DNA of 64,000 nucleotides, taken from NCBI GenBank assembly GCA_024403775.1, contig JAKSRE010000011.1, positions 17,738 to 81,737 on the forward strand, read 5' to 3'. The first letter of the stretch is position 1. Each line of letters opens with the position of its first letter. Below, piece by piece: positions 3,301 through 38,474 of this stretch. Position numbers and translations under genes: made by a program. Source of the stretch: Clostridia bacterium (lineage in GTDB: Bacteria; Bacillota; Clostridia; Saccharofermentanales; Saccharofermentanaceae). The notes under the pieces are model-generated. The model was not told where the DNA came from, searched no databases, and worked only from the letters and a program-made list of their open reading frames with translations.

Positions 3301-3600
3301 GTTTGAATTGCTTTTTGTTGGTTAATGATAGATATCTCTAATAAAAAGGGATGCCTCATGCCATGGTTCTTATAGTATTATGTGACTAATTGCCAGTAGT
3401 ATTTTAGGTTAGGTGTTTTACCTCTATGAATCTTTTAAAATGCAGGGGGGCTTGGCGTAGCGCTTGTAAAATATAGGCTAAAAGCTTAATTTTACAAACA
3501 TTTGGAAGCCGTGTTTATAAAAAATGGATTTAACATGGATTTTTACAAACATTAAAAGACTCGGTTTGGAATTTTCTGGAAAAACATGTTTTTTACAAGC

Positions 3601-3721
3601 GTTACTTTCGCTTAAAAATGGTTAGGATCTCTATTTATTCGTGAGAATATTAGTTAACATCCATTTCGGATAGGAAAAACACATTATAAGGGTAGATTGG
3701 AGGTGCTTTAGGAGCATAGGT
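3601..3721 (+). repeat. Core 1 of array element, copy A
   Basis: A 121-bp non-palindromic segment between two TTTGTAAAA-type units whose starts are 158 bp apart. It aligns by eye, without large gaps, to 37474-37594 and to the reverse complement of 11859-11978. Shared landmarks are GCTT-AAAATG near the left, a TTTATT-GTGAGA stretch, TTTCG near the middle and GATT-GGAG near the right. Confidence 0.7.
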
Positions 3722-4017
3722 GTTTGTAAAAATTAGAAAAAACAGTTGTTTTTACAAACGAGGAATGATTATGTTTGTAAAAAACTCGAATTTTGGCTAT
3801 TTTTACAAACACTGGGAAATCTGGAAAAATCTGGGATGAACTCTATTTATTCTGAATTCTATAGTAAACGACCCCTAGTTTATAATTTTTGCCAATTCTG
3901 ACCATAATTATAAAATCTTCTGAAGGCAATTTATAATTCTCGAAGGTTGGGGCGATTTTTATAAACTCATTTTTCATAGATTTATAATTTTGGTCTGAAA
4001 TCGAAGTTTTTATAAAT

Positions 4018-4117
4018 TGGATTTTTCCATTTAAGCACACAAAAGTGCCATAAAGAAGGAAATGCAACATAAGATGCCAAGATTTATTTGCAGGGAAGCT
4101 TAGGTGTAGCATTTACA
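4018..4117 (+). repeat. Core 2 of array element, copy A
   Basis: A 100-bp segment separating the two runs of TTTATAATT-type units (3980 and 4118). It matches the reverse complement of 11294-11382, for example TTAAG followed by GCAC, GTGCCA and AAATGCAACAT. It is about 10 bp longer than the other two copies. Confidence 0.6.
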
Positions 4118-4446
4118 ATTTATAATTCTTCAAAAATTCCCAGGAAATTAAAAATTACCATTACCCCAGTTTATAATTTTTCTTCTGTTCAAGTAAAATT
4201 ATAAATTCAGCTCTCAGTAGTTTATAATTTTTCTTCTGTTTAAGTAAAATTATAAATTCAGCTCTCAGTAGTTTATAATTTCCAGTAATTTTCCCCAATT
4301 TTATAAACTCATTTCTCTTGAGCTGGTAATCTGCACTTCTACTCCTTAAAAAACATCAAAATCCAACGACAGAAGGAGAAGTACACCTCACATCCTTCCC
4401 CCAAAATGCAAACAATTTAAGAGCCAGTAGAATCCTAATGAAATTA

Positions 4447-4496
4447 ATACAAAAAGAACTGCCTCAAAAGTAAAACTCCGATTACCTTTGAGACAG
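4447..4496 (-). terminator. Terminator of the symporter gene
   Basis: On the minus strand CTGTCTCAAAGGTAA (4496-4482) pairs with TTACTTTTGAGGCAG (4473-4459), followed by TTCTTTTTG. The same CTGTCTCAAA stem word recurs in the terminator at 14453. Confidence 0.85.
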
Positions 4497-4528
4497 CCGC
4501 ATATTGAATAAACAAAAATATCTAAGTA

Positions 4529-6338: not shown

Positions 6339-7247
6339 ATGTCCGAGTACTTTCTTACAACAGAAAATCTGACAAAGACTTACGGTAAAAAGACCGTGGT
6401 CAAGAATGTCAATTTACATATAAAGCGTGGCGCGATTTATGGCCTTATCGGTCGTAATGGTGCTGGTAAGACAACGATTATGAAGATGATTACTGGCGTT
6501 GCGATACCAAGCGATGGAGTTTTTAGATACGAGGGACTTGAGTGTTCTTTGAAGGATGCTTTCGAGCATGTTGGCGCCCTTATTGAGTCTCCCGCTGTAT
6601 ATTACGATATTACTGCTTACGATAATCTTCGAATTAAAGCACTTGCCTATGGTGTTGACAACAGCAAAGAAAGAATAGATGAACTTCTAGCTATTGTCGG
6701 ACTTACAGATGTTAATAAGAAGAAGGTTGGCAAGTTCTCCCTTGGTATGAAGCAGAGACTTGGAATCGCGATGGCACTTGTTGCAAATCCTGATTTTCTG
6801 GTGCTTGATGAGCCTATAAACGGCCTTGATCCACAGGGTATAGTTGAGATTCGTGAGCTTCTTATAAAACTTAATAAAGAGAATGGAATTACTATTCTTA
6901 TCTCAAGCCATATTCTCGAGGAACTCTCAAAATTTGCTACAGACTACGCGATTATTGAGGAAGGCGAGATTATCGAGGAGTCTACAAGAGAGGAACTTAA
7001 TCGTAAGTGCACAAGCAGAATTATTATTGAGTCAAATGAGCTTTCCAGAGTAGCTCCTGTAATTGAGGAGATTGGTATTAGAAATTACTCAATAATTAAT
7101 TCGAATACACTGGAGATATATGAGAGAACTGACGAACTATCTCTTGTTAATACTGAACTTGTTAAAGCGGGAATAAGTATTGAGTCAATTTCAGTTAAGA
7201 AGCAGGATCTTGAAGAATATTTCCTCGAAGTAATTAAGAAACATTGA
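6339..7247 (+). CDS. ABC transporter ATP-binding protein (BcrA / lantibiotic-immunity type)
   Basis: A 302-residue ATPase: Walker A GRNGAGKTT (38-46), signature FSLGMKQR, Walker B FLVLDEPINGLDP, and a switch His in LISSHILEEL. The roughly 80-residue C-terminal extension is typical of bacitracin/lantibiotic-resistance ATPases. ATG 6339 is chosen over 6291 because AAGGAG sits 8 bases upstream. It is followed at once by two permeases and a histidine kinase, a layout usual for sensing and exporting, or resisting, cell-envelope-active peptides. A substrate cannot be read from sequence. Confidence 0.92.
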   Translation: MSEYFLTTENLTKTYGKKTVVKNVNLHIKRGAIYGLIGRNGAGKTTIMKMITGVAIPSDGVFRYEGLECSLKDAFEHVGALIESPAVYYDITAYDNLRIKALAYGVDNSKERIDELLAIVGLTDVNKKKVGKFSLGMKQRLGIAMALVANPDFLVLDEPINGLDPQGIVEIRELLIKLNKENGITILISSHILEELSKFATDYAIIEEGEIIEESTREELNRKCTSRIIIESNELSRVAPVIEEIGIRNYSIINSNTLEIYERTDELSLVNTELVKAGISIESISVKKQDLEEYFLEVIKKH

Positions 7248-8999: not shown

Positions 9000-9925
9000 T
9001 GGGAACCCTTCCTATTATCTACATTGTAGTAGTATTACTTCTGGCAATAATTATTGTGCTGGGAATGCTGGTTGTGAATTTCTCTATTCAGATAAAGCAG
9101 ATTCGCAAACAGCTTCGCTTTGTAGCACACAACAAAACAAATCAGAAAATCAGAATTCACACGCCATCTCGTGAAGTCCAGAGCATGATAAATGATATCA
9201 ACTACCTGATTCAGTCTACTCGCGAAGAAGAGATTGAGATTATGCGTAAGGACAAGGAACTTCGAGATACAATTGTTAATATGTCTCATGACATAAGAAC
9301 GCCTCTTACGTCTCTGTCTGGATATTTTGACTTATTAATTTCTTCTGATGATGCTTCGGAGAAAGAGCGATATGCAGCGATTATACGTGAGCGTATAGCA
9401 TCGCTTTCGGATCTTCTTGAATCAATGTTCTTTTACACCAAGCTTTCGAGCGATAGCATAAAGGCTGACTTTGATAAATGCGATATATCTTCGATTTTTA
9501 TGCAGTCGATGTTCTCCTACTTCGATGATTTTGAGAGACTGGAGATTACGCCTGAACTTGATGTGGAAGAGGGCATTGAGTTTATTACCGACGAGAAGCT
9601 TCTGAAAAGAATTTTCCAGAATCTTATTAAAAATGTTCTGACTCACGGTAAGGACGAACTTAAGGTGTCGCTTAAGAAGGTGAATGGTCAGCAAGGTAAG
9701 CCGAGCGAAGTGGTGCTTATTATGGCCAACAAGTACGACACCTCCACAAATATTGATGTGGAACAGGTTTTTGACCGTTTTTATCAGTCGGATAAGACTC
9801 GAAACAATAACTCGAGCGGTATCGGTCTCGCGGTTGTACTTAAGCTCTCTAGACTTCTCGGAGGCAATGTAACTGCAAGAGTAGATGGTGAGTTTTTTGA
9901 GATAACACTGAAACTTAAGAAATAG
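8999..9925 (+). CDS. Membrane histidine kinase
   Basis: A 308-residue sensor kinase. One N-terminal membrane helix (about 5-27) is followed by a short linker, a dimerisation/phosphoacceptor domain with His97 in VNMSHDIRTPLTSL, and an HATPase domain with NLIKNVLTHG (N box), DRFYQSDKTR (F box) and SSGIGLAVV (G box). With one helix and no extracytoplasmic domain, it resembles intramembrane-sensing kinases that monitor a partner ABC transporter. No response regulator is in this operon; the one at 2516 is the nearest candidate partner. Confidence 0.92.
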   Translation: MGTLPIIYIVVVLLLAIIIVLGMLVVNFSIQIKQIRKQLRFVAHNKTNQKIRIHTPSREVQSMINDINYLIQSTREEEIEIMRKDKELRDTIVNMSHDIRTPLTSLSGYFDLLISSDDASEKERYAAIIRERIASLSDLLESMFFYTKLSSDSIKADFDKCDISSIFMQSMFSYFDDFERLEITPELDVEEGIEFITDEKLLKRIFQNLIKNVLTHGKDELKVSLKKVNGQQGKPSEVVLIMANKYDTSTNIDVEQVFDRFYQSDKTRNNNSSGIGLAVVLKLSRLLGGNVTARVDGEFFEITLKLKK

Positions 9926-10995: not shown

Positions 10996-11033
10996 GCTTG
11001 GCTTGGCGCGGCTTCGCGTTGGGGACGCTTGAT

Positions 11034-11125
11034 GCGTGGTGGCCTATGGTGCCAGTGGTGCGTTATATTCGCGGTGCGTGGTGGCCCATGGCGTCCGTAG
11101 TGCGTTATATTCGCGGCGCGTGGTG
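11034..11125. repeat. Imperfect 42-bp tandem repeat, 2.2 copies
   Basis: Copies start at GCGTGGTG at 11034, 11076 and 11118 (last one partial). Each full copy contains TGCGTTATATTCGCGG. It is noticeably GC-richer than the surrounding DNA and sits just left of array element B. Too degenerate and short to be a CRISPR; no ORF covers it convincingly. Confidence 0.8.
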
Positions 11126-11293
11126 AAGAATTAAGGTCCCCGTTTCCGCCGCGGTTTATAATTTTGTGTGATTTAGGTGGAAATTATAAACTGCTTTGGG
11201 TGGAATTTATAATTTTCTTAAAATAGAAGAAAAATTATAAATTGAGAAAGCAGGAATTTATAATTTACAGGAAATAAGGTGGGAATTATAAAC

Positions 11294-11382
11294 TGCAAAA
11301 TGCGTCTCAAAGGCTAGACTGTGGCTATTGAGTTGTTTTTTTCTGTTTGGCACAAATCGGGTGCTCTTAAGACCAAAATCTG
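11294..11382 (-). repeat. Core 2 of array element, copy B
   Basis: An 89-bp segment between TTTATAATT-type runs (unit starts 127 bp apart). Its reverse complement matches core 2 of copy A (TTAAG, GCAC, GTGCCA) and the right half of core 2 of copy D (AGCCA and GCCTTTGA). Confidence 0.6.
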
Positions 11383-11858
11383 GTTTATAAAAAATGTGAT
11401 TTTGGGTAAGAATTATAAACTGTGAGAGAAAGAGTTTATAAAAACAGGACCAAACTCTGAAAATTATAAACTGGCCTTAGGAGAATTTATAATTTTGATC
11501 TAAATCGGCAAAAATTATAAATCGCTGAGAATTGAGGCTTGCTGCTTACCAACTTGAATTGCTGAAAATTTAGAAAAATCGAAGGTTAACCCCAATATTC
11601 TAAATTTAGTTTTGCCTAGTTTAGAATATTCGAAGGAAGCCGCCATAATTCTAAATATCCTCTTTGAGAATTTAGAAATAACACATATATGCCACATTAT
11701 TCTAAATTGCCCATTTTAAAATTTAGAATTCTCTGCGCTAAGACCGATTATTCTAAATTTTTAATCAGCGTTTGTAAAATATGCTTCTAACCCAGTCTTT
11801 TACAAACTTTATTCTTCTCGATTTGTAAAAACAATGCATTTTCCTTATTTTTACAAAC

Positions 11859-11978
11859 ATCTATAATCCCAATTCTGCTCCAAATCGAACTTACAATAAT
11901 ATTTATCTTCGAAAAGCTGATATCCGCACGTTATCTCACTAATAAACCAAGTCCTCACTCATTTTCAAGCCCCGCACT
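11859..11978 (-). repeat. Core 1 of array element, copy B
   Basis: A 120-bp segment between units at 11821 and 11979 (158-bp step). The reverse complement aligns along its whole length with 37474-37594, sharing GCTTTTCGAAGA, GGATA and GGAGCAG, at roughly two thirds identity by eye. Confidence 0.72.
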
Positions 11979-12118
11979 GTTTGTAAAAACCGCAGGAAAC
12001 CAACATTATTCCAAACCGCGCCTTACAGAGTTTGTAAAAACACGAATTAACCTCACTTTTTACAAACAACGCCTCCCAGAATTTGTAAAAAACAGACTCT
12101 ATCCCATATTTTACAAAC

Positions 12119-12441: not shown

Positions 12442-14424
12442 ATGAAAAGACGATACACCAAAGTATTAACAGCAGTAGTTGCTGCTTCGATGGTATTTTC
12501 CTCAGTATCAATGATGACTTTTGCTGATGATGAGATTAATTCAGGTGACGAGGCCTCAACATCAACAAGTGAGCCAATTGAGGTTGATGGACAGATTGCT
12601 ACACCAGAAGTTACTTCTGAAGTGACACCAACACCAACAGCAGAGCCTGAGGCAGAACCTGAAGCTCAGCCTTTGACAGGCGTTGAGGGCTTCGTGCAGA
12701 GACTCTATTTGAATACTCTCGGACGTGATGCGGAACCTGCAGGACTTGCCTATTGGGCGGATGAGATTAATGGCGGAAAGCCAGCAGTTGAAGTTGTTCA
12801 GTTTTTCTTTGAGGGTGAAGAGTTCACTAATAAGCAGATGAATGATAGTGAATACGTTGAGGTGCTTTATAATACGCTTTTCGGAAGAGAGGCTGATCAG
12901 GCAGGACTCGACTATTGGACAGAGCAGATTGCACAGGGTGCAACAAGAAGATTTGTGCTCTCTGGTTTTGCAAATTCAGATGAATTCCAGAATTTATGCA
13001 CATCCTATGGTGTTACCAAGGGTGAGTTCAGTCTCACAGAGGCTACAGATATCAGACCAGAACTTAATAGTTTTGTGGCACTTGCGTATAGCGGCGTTTT
13101 GGGCAGACTTCCAGATCAGGCAGGACTCAGTTACTGGGTAAATCAGGTTGCTTCTGGTACAACTGCCAGCGAAATGCTTACTGGATTCTTCTATTCAGAC
13201 GAGGTTGCTAATAAGAATCTCACTAATGAGGAATTTGTTACTTTGTGCTATAGAGCTTTTCTCTTAAGAGAGCCAGATGAAGCAGGACTTCAGGCTTGGG
13301 CTTCACTCTTTGATCAGGGCTTGTCCAAGAGATATATCATGTCACGTATTGCGGAGTCACAGGAGTTCAAGAATCTCTGCGACAGCTATAATGTTGTGAA
13401 GGGCAGCATCAATCTTTTCGAATACCGCGACATGTATCCAGAGTATACAAAGTTCATCAATAATGCATATACAAAGCTCGTGGGTACAGCACCTTCAGCA
13501 GAGACTTTGAATAATTATCTTGGCAGTATTCGAAAGGGTACTAAGACATTAAGACAGACAATCAAGGATATTGCTGAGCTTGGTTCTTCAAGACCTTCAA
13601 GTGAGTGGATTCCTGCTCTTTATGATGCAGCACTCGGACGTGGTTGTTCTCAGGCTGAACTTAACAGCCAGTTAGATACTTTGGAATCTTCAGGCAAGAA
13701 GACAGTTATTGAGGCGCTTGTGGATTCAGGTGAATTTGATACACGTTGCTCTAATCTTGGTTTGATTACAGATTCAACAAACAGACTTGAGAGAGGCGCT
13801 AATGGTGCTATCTATGGTTACTCAATGGAGAATGCACTTCTCACAGGATGGAACTATGTTGATGGCTTGAAGTATTTCTTCTATGAAGACGGTACAATGT
13901 GTCAGGATGTAAGAGGAATTCTTGAGGATCAGGAAAGTTATCACCTTACAATCAACACTGTTAATAACATCATTATGGTTTATGCATGGGATGATGTTCT
14001 TGATGACTGGGCTATCCCAGTTGTAGCATTTGTATGCTCATGTGGTCAGGATGCAACACCTACAATTCTTGGTGATTATACACTTCACAGCCAGTCACGT
14101 TGGGGACTCATGATGGGAGACGTTTATTGTCAGTATCTTACACGTATCAGCGGTAACTATCTTATCCACTCTGAGTGTTATTCAACTGTTGATAACTACA
14201 CAATGAATGCTTATGGTTATAGCCTTCTCGGTCAGAGAGCTTCACACGGATGTGTACGTGTAACTTGTGCTGATGCAAAGTGGGTTTATACACACTGTAA
14301 CAACTCTTCAGTTCATATTTATGCTGATGGTTCTGTAAAGGCTCCATTTGATAAGCCAGTTCCACCTCCAGCAGTAATTCTTCCAAACGGAAGAGCTTAT
14401 GATCCAACAGATCCTGAGTGTTAA
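12442..14424 (+). CDS. Secreted DUF4214-repeat protein with C-terminal L,D-transpeptidase domain
   Basis: A 660-residue exported protein. A signal peptide (about 1-28, ending FADDE) is followed by an acidic, Thr/Pro-rich linker, then several DUF4214 repeats (about 80-450) marked by recurring LGRxADxAGLxYW-like sequence. Residues about 480-640 form a YkuD-type L,D-transpeptidase domain with catalytic Cys604 in SHGCVRV. Such enzymes make 3-3 cross-links in peptidoglycan or attach proteins to it. DUF4214 is a surface-protein domain of unclear role; the same domain forms the outside part of the pseudokinase at 27507. It ends at a strong terminator. Confidence 0.9.
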   Translation: MKRRYTKVLTAVVAASMVFSSVSMMTFADDEINSGDEASTSTSEPIEVDGQIATPEVTSEVTPTPTAEPEAEPEAQPLTGVEGFVQRLYLNTLGRDAEPAGLAYWADEINGGKPAVEVVQFFFEGEEFTNKQMNDSEYVEVLYNTLFGREADQAGLDYWTEQIAQGATRRFVLSGFANSDEFQNLCTSYGVTKGEFSLTEATDIRPELNSFVALAYSGVLGRLPDQAGLSYWVNQVASGTTASEMLTGFFYSDEVANKNLTNEEFVTLCYRAFLLREPDEAGLQAWASLFDQGLSKRYIMSRIAESQEFKNLCDSYNVVKGSINLFEYRDMYPEYTKFINNAYTKLVGTAPSAETLNNYLGSIRKGTKTLRQTIKDIAELGSSRPSSEWIPALYDAALGRGCSQAELNSQLDTLESSGKKTVIEALVDSGEFDTRCSNLGLITDSTNRLERGANGAIYGYSMENALLTGWNYVDGLKYFFYEDGTMCQDVRGILEDQESYHLTINTVNNIIMVYAWDDVLDDWAIPVVAFVCSCGQDATPTILGDYTLHSQSRWGLMMGDVYCQYLTRISGNYLIHSECYSTVDNYTMNAYGYSLLGQRASHGCVRVTCADAKWVYTHCNNSSVHIYADGSVKAPFDKPVPPPAVILPNGRAYDPTDPEC

Positions 14425-27506: not shown

Positions 27507-30146
27507 TTAGTTAGCTACATTATAGTTCTCACAAAGACCAATGAACTCTGGAGAATCTGCGAATGTAAGGAGCAAGTCTTCACGAGCTACAGTCTCATTA
27601 GTGAGCTGCTCAACCCAGTAATTAAAGCCTTCCTCATCTGGCTCTCTGTTAAAATATGTATTATAGAGAACCTTAACAAAAGCTGCATCGTCAAGTCCAC
27701 GCTCCTGGAATTCAGCACTCTGGATAAGTGCACTAGCGATATCTCTACCAAGTGACTCGCCAGAAACTAATGCAGATACCCAAATGAACTGGCTACCCTG
27801 ATCAGGACGTCTCTCAAGACAACCTTCATACATTGAAACAACGAATCTGTTCACATTAACAAGCTTTGTCTGATTACAGTTATACAAGAATGCTCCGCAC
27901 TCTACTTTGTGCTGTGTAGCATAGAGTTCACACTCAGGTGCATTAGCACAAATCTGGAAGAAGTCTTCATGTGTTACACCATTAGCGAACTGCTCAACCC
28001 AAGCGGCTGTCTCTTCATCTGCTGGTAAACGACCGAATAATACATTATATACATCATTAATATATTCTTCGTCTGTTTTATTAAGAGCAGCATACTCTTT
28101 ACTTGTGAAGAGATTATAGATAACGATACCACCGTATGTAGTATTAGACTCAAGATCTGAACCAATCTTATTTGCGATATCTTCAGCTACTTCCTCGCCA
28201 AAAATCTTGTTGTAAGACTTAGCATAATAAGAAGCTGGAGTAAATACCTCAGGAGTTGGAGTAGGTTCAGTCTCAGAAGGCTCTGTCTCCTCTGGTTCAG
28301 TCTCTTCAGTTTCCTTAGTTGTAGCTGGCTTCTTTGTCTCCTCTGTCTCCTCGATTGTTGTCTCTTCTGTCTCATTAGGATCTTCGCCGTCACCGCCTAA
28401 GAAAATGACTACAAGTAAAAATACGAGTAAGAGGGCGAGTACAGCAATGATAACTGGAATCAAAGGGAACTTCTTCTTTGGCTTCTCGCCAGAAGAAGGA
28501 ACAGCTGACATTGGGATAGCTCCACCCATTGGATTATTTGCGGAATTAACACTGCCAGGAGTGTTCTGATATGATGGTGGAATAGGTCTAAAGAAAGCAT
28601 CAGAATTCTGTGCAGCTGGCTGTGGCTGCTGAGCCTGTGGCTGAGGCTGTGCCTGAGGTGCAGGGTTCATCATTGAAGCATCAAGAACAGTAGTCTCACC
28701 GAAATTTACAGCAGGACGAGCAGTGTATCTTGCAGCTGTAACAGCCTGTCTTGCAACGCTCTCTTCAAAAGCCTTGTTTTCTTCTTCTTCACTTGTAAAA
28801 ATTCTTGCACTTGCAGACTTCTTAACCACATTTCTTTCAGGAGTATTCTGAGCCTTTGGTGTGGCTGCAGGAACTTCTGACAAGTCATCGATAATAGTCA
28901 TGTAAGGTGATGAAAGATAATAAAATTTATTGCCATTAGACAATTCAAGCAACTTGCTTGCTGTGATTGTTGTAGCATCCATATTTGAAGTGTCTGCTTC
29001 GCTGCTATGAACAATCTTACGCCCCTTAAAGAGATTTGCTACTTCTTCTGCAGTATATTTCTTCTCATTTGCAGAAGTTGCATTTACATCTTGATTTGGT
29101 TCTTCTGTTGACACTGGTATATCCTCCTGAATTGTTTTTTTATTTATTTCTTTTTTGGGTATAGTTTCAATAACTGGCGTAGCCTTAACTACATGAGCTG
29201 GCTCAGAAATTGGGGATTTTGAAGAAGCATCCATCGCAATTACATCAACAGCTGGCTCTATATCAAGACTGTCGAGAGCTTCCTTGAATTCTTGTGCACT
29301 CTGATATCGTTCGCTGATGTCATAGCTACATGCCTTGTTAATAACATAGAGCAAATCAGAATTTACATTCTTAATTAAAGGAAGAGAATTCCACTTGTGT
29401 ATCTGATTTGATTCAATAGCATTTTTTGCATCAACGAAAGGCGGAATCTTACCACCGCACATCTCATATAATGAGAGTCCAAGACTATAAATATCAACCA
29501 GATTAGTATAATCAGTTCCCTCTATTTGTCCAGGGGCTGCATAAAATTTATTGGCTGTTATTATATTATCAATTGTATCTGTAATTCCAAAGTCACCAAG
29601 TTTGTAGTTCTTCTGACCAACATAGATGGTATCTGGTTTAATATTGCGATGGATAATGCCGTTATCGTGAGCGAGAATAAGTGCTGAACAGATGTCTTTA
29701 CCAATCTTGATTACGTCGCCTTCAGATAATTTGATGCCATTAGACATATAAGTTCTTACATTATATATATGCTCTGTAGTCCAGTGGAGATCTAAACCAA
29801 AGGAATCTAATTCCTTAAAATCTCTCGCAGCTATATTAATAGCTTTAACGATGAAAGCGCTATTTCCGAGTGAATCCATAATCGCCTTAAGTTCGTTTAC
29901 AGAATTCTGGCGAAGAGCTGATCTAAAAGTTTCATACTCAGACTGCTTTTCTTTTGGTAAGGCTGATTTGTCACCTTCAATGGTAATCATATTCGCTACT
30001 CTTAATGCAAGATTATTAGTGCCTGTATTGAGTGGATTTAATAAAAAAGTTGCATCAAGACCATCTGGTGATTCGGAAATCAAATCTGCGATTTTCCAAC
30101 TGCCAAAAACAAGTCTTACTGCTTCAGTTCTATTTACAATTGCCAT
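27507..30146 (-). CDS. Membrane Ser/Thr-kinase-like protein (probable pseudokinase) with extracellular DUF4214 repeats
   Basis: 879 residues from ATG 30146, which has a GGAGGG site upstream; an in-frame TTG at 30164 is less likely. A kinase-fold domain (about 10-295) keeps DFG (185-187) but has HRN (166-168) where active kinases have HRD, has no clear glycine loop, and lacks the APE motif (AAPGQ), so phosphotransfer is doubtful. A long Gln/Pro-rich linker leads to one membrane helix (about 560-583), an acidic Thr/Glu/Pro stalk, and DUF4214 repeats outside (about 640-875). It looks like a surface receptor built on the PknB plan but with DUF4214 instead of PASTA. Confidence 0.85.
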   Translation of the reverse strand: MAIVNRTEAVRLVFGSWKIADLISESPDGLDATFLLNPLNTGTNNLALRVANMITIEGDKSALPKEKQSEYETFRSALRQNSVNELKAIMDSLGNSAFIVKAINIAARDFKELDSFGLDLHWTTEHIYNVRTYMSNGIKLSEGDVIKIGKDICSALILAHDNGIIHRNIKPDTIYVGQKNYKLGDFGITDTIDNIITANKFYAAPGQIEGTDYTNLVDIYSLGLSLYEMCGGKIPPFVDAKNAIESNQIHKWNSLPLIKNVNSDLLYVINKACSYDISERYQSAQEFKEALDSLDIEPAVDVIAMDASSKSPISEPAHVVKATPVIETIPKKEINKKTIQEDIPVSTEEPNQDVNATSANEKKYTAEEVANLFKGRKIVHSSEADTSNMDATTITASKLLELSNGNKFYYLSSPYMTIIDDLSEVPAATPKAQNTPERNVVKKSASARIFTSEEEENKAFEESVARQAVTAARYTARPAVNFGETTVLDASMMNPAPQAQPQPQAQQPQPAAQNSDAFFRPIPPSYQNTPGSVNSANNPMGGAIPMSAVPSSGEKPKKKFPLIPVIIAVLALLLVFLLVVIFLGGDGEDPNETEETTIEETEETKKPATTKETEETEPEETEPSETEPTPTPEVFTPASYYAKSYNKIFGEEVAEDIANKIGSDLESNTTYGGIVIYNLFTSKEYAALNKTDEEYINDVYNVLFGRLPADEETAAWVEQFANGVTHEDFFQICANAPECELYATQHKVECGAFLYNCNQTKLVNVNRFVVSMYEGCLERRPDQGSQFIWVSALVSGESLGRDIASALIQSAEFQERGLDDAAFVKVLYNTYFNREPDEEGFNYWVEQLTNETVAREDLLLTFADSPEFIGLCENYNVAN

Positions 30147-30281
30147 ATTCTTTTCCCTCCCCAACAGACATTATATAATGAAATCCACCTCACTGTAAGA
30201 TGTAATATTAAATATAAGGTGAGTTTTACGTATTTTGTGTTACAATTTAATCTATATTATTGTGAGAAATGGAGTGACAGT

Positions 30282-37301: not shown

Positions 37302-37340
37302 AACAGATTTTTGGAAAACTCATAAATAAAACAATAAGAG

Positions 37341-37390
37341 GCCATCTCAAAAGTGATTTATTGATTACTTTTGAGATGGCTTCTTTTTTT
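37341..37390 (+). terminator. Terminator of the nrdG-nrdD operon
   Basis: GCCATCTCAAAAGT (37341-37354) pairs perfectly with ACTTTTGAGATGGC (37367-37380), then TTCTTTTTTT. Its T-tail runs directly into array element D. Confidence 0.95.
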
Positions 37391-37473
37391 GTGGGTTCTG
37401 AGGGCGAACTGTTTTTTACAAATTCTTTTTGGATTGGTTTGGAATATAGTGGTTTTGGCGGTTTTTTACAAAC

Positions 37474-37594
37474 ATGTGGCCGCTTGGGAATGGGCAATAT
37501 CTTAGTTTGGTTGCGAAGAATCGTGGGGATAGATGCTTTTCGAAGAAGAATTCTGCTCGAGATTGAATTCTGGAGCAGGATTAGGATTAAAGTA
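37474..37594 (+). repeat. Core 1 of array element, copy D
   Basis: A 121-bp segment aligning with the reverse complement of 11859-11978 and more weakly with 3601-3721. It contains GCTTTTCGAAGAAGAATTC in the middle and GGAGCAGGATTAGGATTA near the right end; TCTGCTC and GAGCAG could form a small internal hairpin. Confidence 0.72.
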
Positions 37595-38027
37595 GTTTGT
37601 AAAAATTAGTAAAATGCGTGTTTTTTACAAATATGGGAGGCTGATGTTTGTAAAAATGGAGGGCAGGAGTTGATTTTACAAACATGGGGAAGTTTAATTT
37701 GTAAAATTGAGGTTTTGCCCTGAATTTTACAAACGTGCCTTTGAGATCAGGTGGCAGGCAGAGGATGTTTTTTTGGATGCCCTTTATTTTTATGAGAACC
37801 GCAATATTTAGAATAATCGGAGTAAACAGAGATTATTCTAAATTTTCTTGGGGACAAGTAGCAGAGGTGTCACTGGGCTATTCGGCAATTTATAATTATC
37901 GCCAATTTTGACCAGAATTATAAATTTTTCCAAGGCCAGTTTATAATTTCCAGGGTTTAAGTTGAATTTTATAAACTCATTCTCTTTGAATTTATAATTC
38001 ATAACAAAAATCACATTTTTTATAAAC

Positions 38028-38117
38028 AAGAGTTTGATATTTGTCCTCTTCATCGACGCTATACAGGTAGAAATCTAACTTAGGAGCCATATTCCTGCCT
38101 TTGAAGGAGCGTTTGCT
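38028..38117 (+). repeat. Core 2 of array element, copy D
   Basis: A 90-bp segment between TTTATAATT-type runs (unit starts 128 bp apart). Its right half, with GAGCCATATTCCTGCCTTTG, matches the reverse complement of core 2 in copy B; the left half is much diverged. Confidence 0.55.
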
Positions 38118-38474
38118 GTTTATAATTTTTCTAAGATTTCCAGTAAATTATAAATCCTGCTCTCAGCAGTTTATAATTTCCCTTCTATTCTAAATAAATT
38201 ATAAATCTCGCCCCAAGCAGTTTATAATTCCCGCCTATTTCCCCAATAATTATAAATTCGCCCAGCTCTAGTTCATAATTTCTACTCCCCCCTAAAAAAC
38301 TCGCGAAATAATAAAATGTTGCAATAAAACCACACTGCTTCCAATACCCCAAAATAAAATCATACTTTTACCCCTCCAGCCGATTCCTTTTACAAGAGGA
38401 TTTTTCTTACATAGTTAAGATAGAAATCTGTGTTATAATAGCCGTAGTTTTTGTTCTTTAAAGGGGTAACTCGA

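Follow-up and report, generated by a model that had tools for sequence, protein, structure and literature searches.

The window described here, the whole of a 64,000-nucleotide stretch of contig JAKSRE010000011.1 from a Clostridia bacterium, contains three arrays of 36-bp palindromes, copies A, B and D, which are set on a 51-bp pitch and are non-coding. The palindrome arms carry one of three words, one for each module type: TTTATAAT in A modules, TTTGTAAA in G modules and TTTAGAAT in R modules. The modules, and a hairpin adjoining copy D, are placed as follows.

3463..3809, forward strand: copy A, G module; units at 3463 and 3514 and, decayed, about 3565, then a spacer, then 3723 and 3774 (unit map and alignment to G modules).
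3879..4307, forward strand: copy A, A module; units at 3879, 3930 and 3981, spacer, then 4119, 4170, 4221 and an extra unit at 4272.
11155..11521, reverse strand: copy B (inverted), A module; units at 11155, 11206 and 11257, spacer, then 11384, 11435 and 11486.
11569..11757, reverse strand: copy B, R run; units at 11569, 11620, 11671 and 11722.
11771..12117, reverse strand: copy B, G module; units at 11771 and 11822, spacer, then 11980, 12031 and 12082.
37337..37384, forward strand: terminator-like hairpin outside the array, 3′ of the upstream nrdD-type gene and just before copy D.
37387..37733, forward strand: copy D, G module; decayed units at 37387 and 37438, spacer, then 37596, 37647 and 37698.
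37807..37842, forward strand: copy D, single R unit (unit map).
37889..38280, forward strand: copy D, A module; units at 37889, 37940 and 37991, spacer, then 38119, 38170 and 38221, and a left arm only at 38272.

Exact matches to the unit pattern TTTRKAAW-N20-WTTMYAAA number 9 for copy A, 15 for B and 10 for D, the remainder of the window having none; with one mismatch per unit tolerated the counts are 11, 15 and 10. In 1000 dinucleotide shuffles of each copy (3000 in total) the mean number of units was 0.000, 0.003 and 0.001, respectively, with a maximum of 1, and a 51-bp step occurred in none. The shuffles thus never reproduce the pitch, which rules out a chance origin and bears out an earlier note on this DNA, which had described palindromic arrays on a 51-bp pitch and had proposed such a shuffled control as the way to refute them. 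That note counted 12, 15 and 13 units, numbers that are matched once visibly decayed units (by eye, near 3565 and at 37387, 37438 and 38272) are added to ours. The unit starts that it named (4118 and others) fall one base ahead of the TTT; the final unit of copy D (38271) has a left arm only.

The spacing also emerges when the gap is left free: 34 of 39 inward-facing word pairs (10 to 60 bp apart) lie at 28, and 24 of 36 outward-facing pairs at 23. Arm direction, said to switch about every 25 bp, does so at measured intervals of 27 and 24 bp, and 51 bp, with 10.5 bp to a helical turn, corresponds to about 4.9 turns, close to the five helical turns that had been suggested. Over the 19 elements described below, 86 of 132 consecutive spacings are 51 bp and four are 50 bp, the others being mostly spacers (127/128, 82/83 and 158/159); the pitch is exact inside runs only. 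A coding array was rejected, the longest open reading frame (ORF) overlapping any array being 131 amino acids (locus L050) and an A unit having stop codons in two of three frames.

The arrays belong to a dispersed composite family, as had been proposed, and similar ones are abundant elsewhere in the same genome (G000; 2.82 Mb in 93 contigs, 97% complete). With a gap of 16 to 26 permitted, the genome holds 51 exact TTTATAAT-word palindromes, and the gap is 20 in all 50 that are among the matches listed; with the gap fixed at 20 there are 30 exact palindromes of TTTGTAAA and 13 of TTTAGAAT, whilst reversed control patterns gave 0 matches in this genome. The element set, 13 stretches around palindrome matches plus the window, comprises at least 19 elements spread over 13 contigs, that of the window being one of them, with 151 units at no more than one mismatch to consensus, or 3 to 15 units per element. 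Three copies lie inside a 35-kb part of the window and four elements inside a 33-kb part of contig C67. All 93 palindromes among the matches listed (94 exact same-word palindromes were counted) fall within array loci; single words do occur outside arrays, with 11 exact matches in the window for the four words used.

These elements share a common plan. A full module has three palindromes, a spacer and three further palindromes, the second half reaching five in L050. The distance from the start of unit 3 to that of unit 4 is 125 to 138 bp in A modules (mostly 127 or 128), 116, 117 or 128 bp in R modules keeping both halves, and 158 to 159 bp in G modules where both flanking units could be placed. 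All five copies with three words (B, D, L050, L052:4350 and L058) have the order G-R-A. Copies with two words are G-A (copy A), R-A (L049) or G-R (L054 and L059:9130); L051, L053, L055, L056, L060 and L059:15890 are solo A modules, L059:4277 is a solo R and L057 and L061 are solo G, and L052:13253 consists of G units plus one A unit. When copies are aligned in pairs, the match mostly ends at the outermost half-sites; the exceptions are L052:13253, L054 and L057, which have neighbouring gene sequence in common, and a few pairs whose flanks also align, over as much as about 120 bp (for example L059:15890/L049 and L054/L059:9130). The G-module spacer is well conserved between the composite copies (L050, L052 and window D) and parts of it (ATTCTGGAG and neighbours) are kept also in the diverged L061; it may therefore hold a further site.

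The degree to which the words are fixed was assessed in 13 of the 14 A-bearing elements, those with both halves present, giving 78 pairs. Differences affect 100 of 8424 positions in the 9-bp arms (1.2%), compared with 2966 of 5616 free loop positions (52.8%, against 72% between non-homologous units) and 2040 of 4680 linker positions (43.6%); the figure is 230 of 936 for dyad pairs and 767 of 1872 for shoulders. On a tree built from free positions and spacers (116 + 111 columns), with terminal branches of length 0.06 to 1.48, about 364 arm changes are predicted on terminal branches without constraint, and 9 differences from the arm consensus are observed; leaving out L060 (branch 1.48, poorly measured) gives about 296 against 6. 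The earlier view that spacing is under strong constraint is supported; that it is constrained more than sequence is true only of linkers and loops, the 9-bp words varying about as little as the spacing does. Positions 18–19 of the dyad are A/T in 95% of half-site views for A, 83–84% for G and 97% for R. In all 13 A modules units 2 and 3 have a right arm reading TTTTATAAA, which breaks the palindrome at positions 8–9, and the left arm of the third unit reads TTTGGAAT in all seven G modules that retain that unit, out of 10 aligned.

Fixed half-sites, an A/T dyad and identical palindrome breaks speak against passive repeats and fit a site read by a protein. From the A/T dyad, the conserved TTTTATAAA mismatches and the weak folds we infer that the target bound is duplex DNA rather than RNA. 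Eight units folded as RNA gave 0 to −10.5 kcal/mol, seven of them no better than −5.6 kcal/mol, with A and G units at 0 to −3.7 kcal/mol; no Rfam family matches the window at gathering scores, and the arms of A modules hardly vary, which leaves no covariation to score. Among the three roles first suggested, an array for a multimeric DNA-organising protein fits best, given the fixed half-sites, the fixed spacing, the A/T dyad and the conserved asymmetric arms. An intrinsic terminator, a GC-rich stem with a U run behind it, was looked for in copy D and does not fit: the strong hairpin there precedes the array, inside which one 5-pair stem is reported, on both strands. Two further candidates were dropped. 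A promoter, suggested by a TATAAT within the A word, finds 5 promoter-like matches in copy D against 4.3 in shuffles, and the G word does not fit. A likeness of TTTATAAT to the PerR half-site fails since 18 bp, instead of 1, separate the half-sites in these units.

The elements were placed with respect to genes called as the longest ORF of at least 100 amino acids, with small array-overlapping ORFs dropped. All 19 lie behind the 3′ end of at least one gene, in 8 convergent, 11 tandem and 0 divergent gaps; element-free gaps of at least 150 bp from the same loci number 2 convergent, 19 tandem and 9 divergent. For divergent gaps against the rest, Fisher p = 0.008. The first half of the element gap is G-rich in 18 of 19 and the second half C-rich in 15 of 19, both holding in 14 of 19, and of the 19 tandem gaps that lack an element one shows the full inversion of skew; comparing the 11 tandem gaps with an element and the 19 without gives p = 1.8e-4, although both this test and that of gap class are unmatched for length because the control gaps are shorter. 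The inversion could stem from two-sided transcription, from selection or from the composition of the arrays themselves (A modules are C-rich in loops and linkers), and is not proof of a barrier. Elements stand in both orientations relative to genes and beside unrelated ones. The 36 of 38 flanking genes that were scanned are diverse, 8 being without a Pfam match, and include a response regulator, an amino-acid carrier, an nrdD-type reductase, lactate racemase, HydF, HPr kinase, an RNase and a tRNA synthetase.

The family appears to be confined to this lineage. The A-word triple is absent from 147 relatives and found in its own genome only, the three-word pattern is in none of 84 other genomes of the genus, and a looser TTTNNAAW pattern is in none of 82 other genomes. 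The earlier note would have taken a lack of similar arrays elsewhere in this and in related genomes as a refutation; they are lacking in the relatives sampled, though plentiful in this genome. In genome_contigs (84,980 species) the A-word triple gave 0 matches and a loose two-unit pattern 92 stretches, none with identical arms in both units; the best arm agreement was 15 of 16 positions, at four loci. A word-free test for like palindromes following one another at 51 bp gave a maximum of 3 in a row in two of these stretches (L098 and L127), 2 in 27 and 1 in 63, compared with 3 to 5 in a row in 13 of 14 sources from the window's own genome. These patterns detect words of the form TTTNNAAW only, so arrays with other words would escape them, and the collections may omit records very near this genome. 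There were 0 matches in viral contigs, and none to copy D in phages and plasmids; no description of such arrays was found among open-licence papers searched by title and start of abstract. Two Bacteroidetes bins (NBLL01 and JAOZVH01; for example L066, L098 and L127) have many AT-rich direct tandem repeats of ~51 bp, with different words and without the plan described here.

One relative, G020, was the best match for nrdD (85% identical there and 65–82% in other compared stretches). At the places of copies A and B it has neither the array nor the neighbouring gene, so gain of the array with the gene and loss are indistinguishable. At A, a response-regulator match is followed after ~130 bp by a match to window position 6351 onward; at B, window positions 9826 and 12718 lie 388 bp apart compared with 2892 in the window. 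Synteny beyond A and B is uninformative, the relatives being distant and the flanking genes scattered.

From these results, the arrays are very probably multi-site platforms on duplex DNA for a protein. Our best reading is a lineage-specific nucleoprotein boundary element: each dispersed array would be a platform for a dimeric DNA-binding protein acting as a nucleoprotein barrier behind gene 3′ ends, a statement to which, taken whole, we assign a probability of roughly 0.4. One protein dimer would occupy each 36-bp palindrome, and neighbouring dimers at 51 bp would touch to give a phased complex, with the three words read by three related proteins or in three binding modes. The complex would limit transcription, and the supercoils driven by it, entering from either side; such a two-sided limit would give rise to a first half rich in G and a second half rich in C, and selection would act on every copy at its own site. 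A wider claim, which we regard as doubtful, is that the arrays form an undescribed class of bacterial boundary element, invented within a single lineage, in which word-specific modules of at least 12 half-sites would each be read by their own member of a small protein family, the DNA between transcription units being locked into a phased nucleoprotein block that would halt transcription and supercoils from both sides.

Several observations weigh against this boundary reading. With respect to duplex DNA as the target, one R unit reaches −10.5 kcal/mol when folded (z −5.7), and paired arms share the same word (positions 4–5) in 143 of 151 units, a figure that counts in favour of a dimer site as well; identity over the full 9 bp is found in only 91 of 151, the differences being mostly at positions 8–9. 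No candidate binding protein was found among 36 of the 38 flanking genes or by searches for the ParB helix-turn-helix (HTH) family and serine recombinases. The genome has one ParB HTH member (in 25 relatives, 14 have one, six none and five two or three) and two serine recombinases (0 to 7 in relatives), both ordinary numbers. Skew is not fully inverted in 5 of 19 element gaps, and control gaps from the same loci span 155–612 bp compared with 488–1709 bp. In copy D the terminator-like hairpin already stands ahead of the array, so a barrier is not obviously needed there. Fixed arms are also expected if the copies descend from lineages that were always mobile, and the evidence comes from one genome, from sequence only and with ORF-based gene calls.

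Of the alternatives, a non-autonomous mobile element survives best, though we think it unlikely. Its half-sites would serve a transposase or recombinase encoded elsewhere, modules would copy into safe gaps at 3′ ends and only copies with intact arms would propagate, which would account for dispersed copies in both orientations beside unrelated genes, for homology that mostly stops at the outermost half-sites, for a family known from one genome only among those searched and for the lack of A and B at the syntenic places in G020; avoidance of promoters is likewise expected of tolerated insertions. The genome-wide search for transposases and recombinases covered serine recombinases only. Given the long terminal branches and so few arm changes, however, this reading would require the loss of most parent copies. 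Inspection of the A-module flanks by eye showed no target-site duplication, the empty sites of G020 are not clean, and transposition usually needs fewer than twelve internal half-sites, a need that the modules, with at least 12 each, exceed. The mobile role that had been suggested agrees with dispersal and with homology edges; the copies do not drift freely after insertion (9 arm differences against about 364), and for a role in host defence no support was found. Miniature inverted-repeat transposable elements (MITEs) are similarly short, non-coding, dispersed and intergenic; here it is binding words, in place of a single terminal inverted repeat, that form the boundaries, and the interior words are conserved far above the loops instead of drifting freely. 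The outermost half-sites are inverted copies that mostly mark the edge of homology (flanks checked by eye).

Rather less probable is an array for chromosome organisation or segregation, centromere-like or a nucleoid-domain anchor, in which a protein would bind the clusters, bridge them and fold the chromosome. The copies are constrained and clustered, and tandem inverted-repeat sites at constant pitch resemble in plan the plasmid centromeres, among which the accounts compared describe twelve 43-bp repeats in the F plasmid centromere (sopC/parS; PMC6238139) and heptad repeats in parS of pSM19035 (PMC9499535). Those serve one partition site in a plasmid, whereas at least 19 loci beside ordinary genes are found here, spread over 13 contigs and with more widely spaced half-sites and three words. 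The genome has no extra ParB-like HTH protein, its sole match being on contig C39, where no array is among the matches listed. An adjoining par operon with a ParB-type protein was not found, and no partition family is among the matches shown for the 36 of 38 flanking genes; among centromere-binding proteins the genome search covered the ParB type. Chromosome organisation does not predict the 3′-end bias or the skew inversion.

Titration decoys, arrays that would sequester a regulator and thereby determine how much of it is free, are very improbable. The many sites per genome would suit them, as would the confinement of the listed exact palindromes to array loci, so that the protein seemingly lacks scattered single operators of this exact form; the 3′-end location, the skew and the fixed module plan are left unexplained. 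Least probable is the RNA hairpin array suggested earlier, a transcribed element with palindromes as tandem stem-loops: the shared arm words and the one stable R unit favour it, but the same two mismatched positions are conserved in two of six units in 13 of 13 A modules, the other folds are weak, the A/T dyad would fall in the loop, and elements lie in both orientations relative to genes.

Amongst the other known systems are the repetitive extragenic palindromes (REPs) and the bacterial interspersed mosaic elements (BIMEs), which the descriptions compared present as dispersed, extragenic, alternating in orientation, regularly spaced within clusters, species-specific, recognised by host proteins and in many cases placed between convergent genes (PMC2817692, PMC1525189). 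The arrays are likewise extragenic, clustered and of alternating orientation. Modified REPs are described as still palindromic in character, which points to complementary mutations (PMC2817692); in the arrays two units out of six depart from the palindrome in an identical way, and stem-loop pairing is not kept. Neither an exact 51-bp pitch nor a module of three units, spacer and three units is in the REP descriptions compared. Clustered regularly interspaced short palindromic repeats (CRISPR) also combine constant words with variable stretches of fixed length, but the variable stretches here are homologous between copies and drift by substitution (52.8% against 72%), and the arms are inverted 9-bp words in elements of 3 to 15 units. 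As for structured RNA families, the arrays of the window match none in Rfam, and the mismatches in A modules are conserved.

Other features near the arrays were noted. Two tandem copies of a 42-bp stretch, 88% identical, lie at window positions 11033–11116 between a GGDEF gene and copy B. The terminator-like hairpin adjoining copy D (CTCAAAAGT...ACTTTTGAG) has look-alikes near copy A (4440–4500) and on contig C11. Proteins with a DUF4214 domain are encoded at window 12442–14424 and 27507–30164, L052:11306-13075, L054:293-2491 and L057:3260-5362; such genes border 4 of the 19 element gaps, and the protein at 27507–30164 also has a protein kinase domain.

Eukaryotes use insulators or factor-bound terminators between genes; to our knowledge, a bacterial counterpart in the form of dedicated multi-site boundary elements is not known. 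If the arrays are instead mobile, they would represent a non-autonomous element with an unusually elaborate site under strong constraint. As a boundary element, a family of at least 19 natural arrays, in which the words are fixed and the loops drift, would provide a ready-made system for finding such a protein, and would help in asking how a bacterium isolates adjacent genes.
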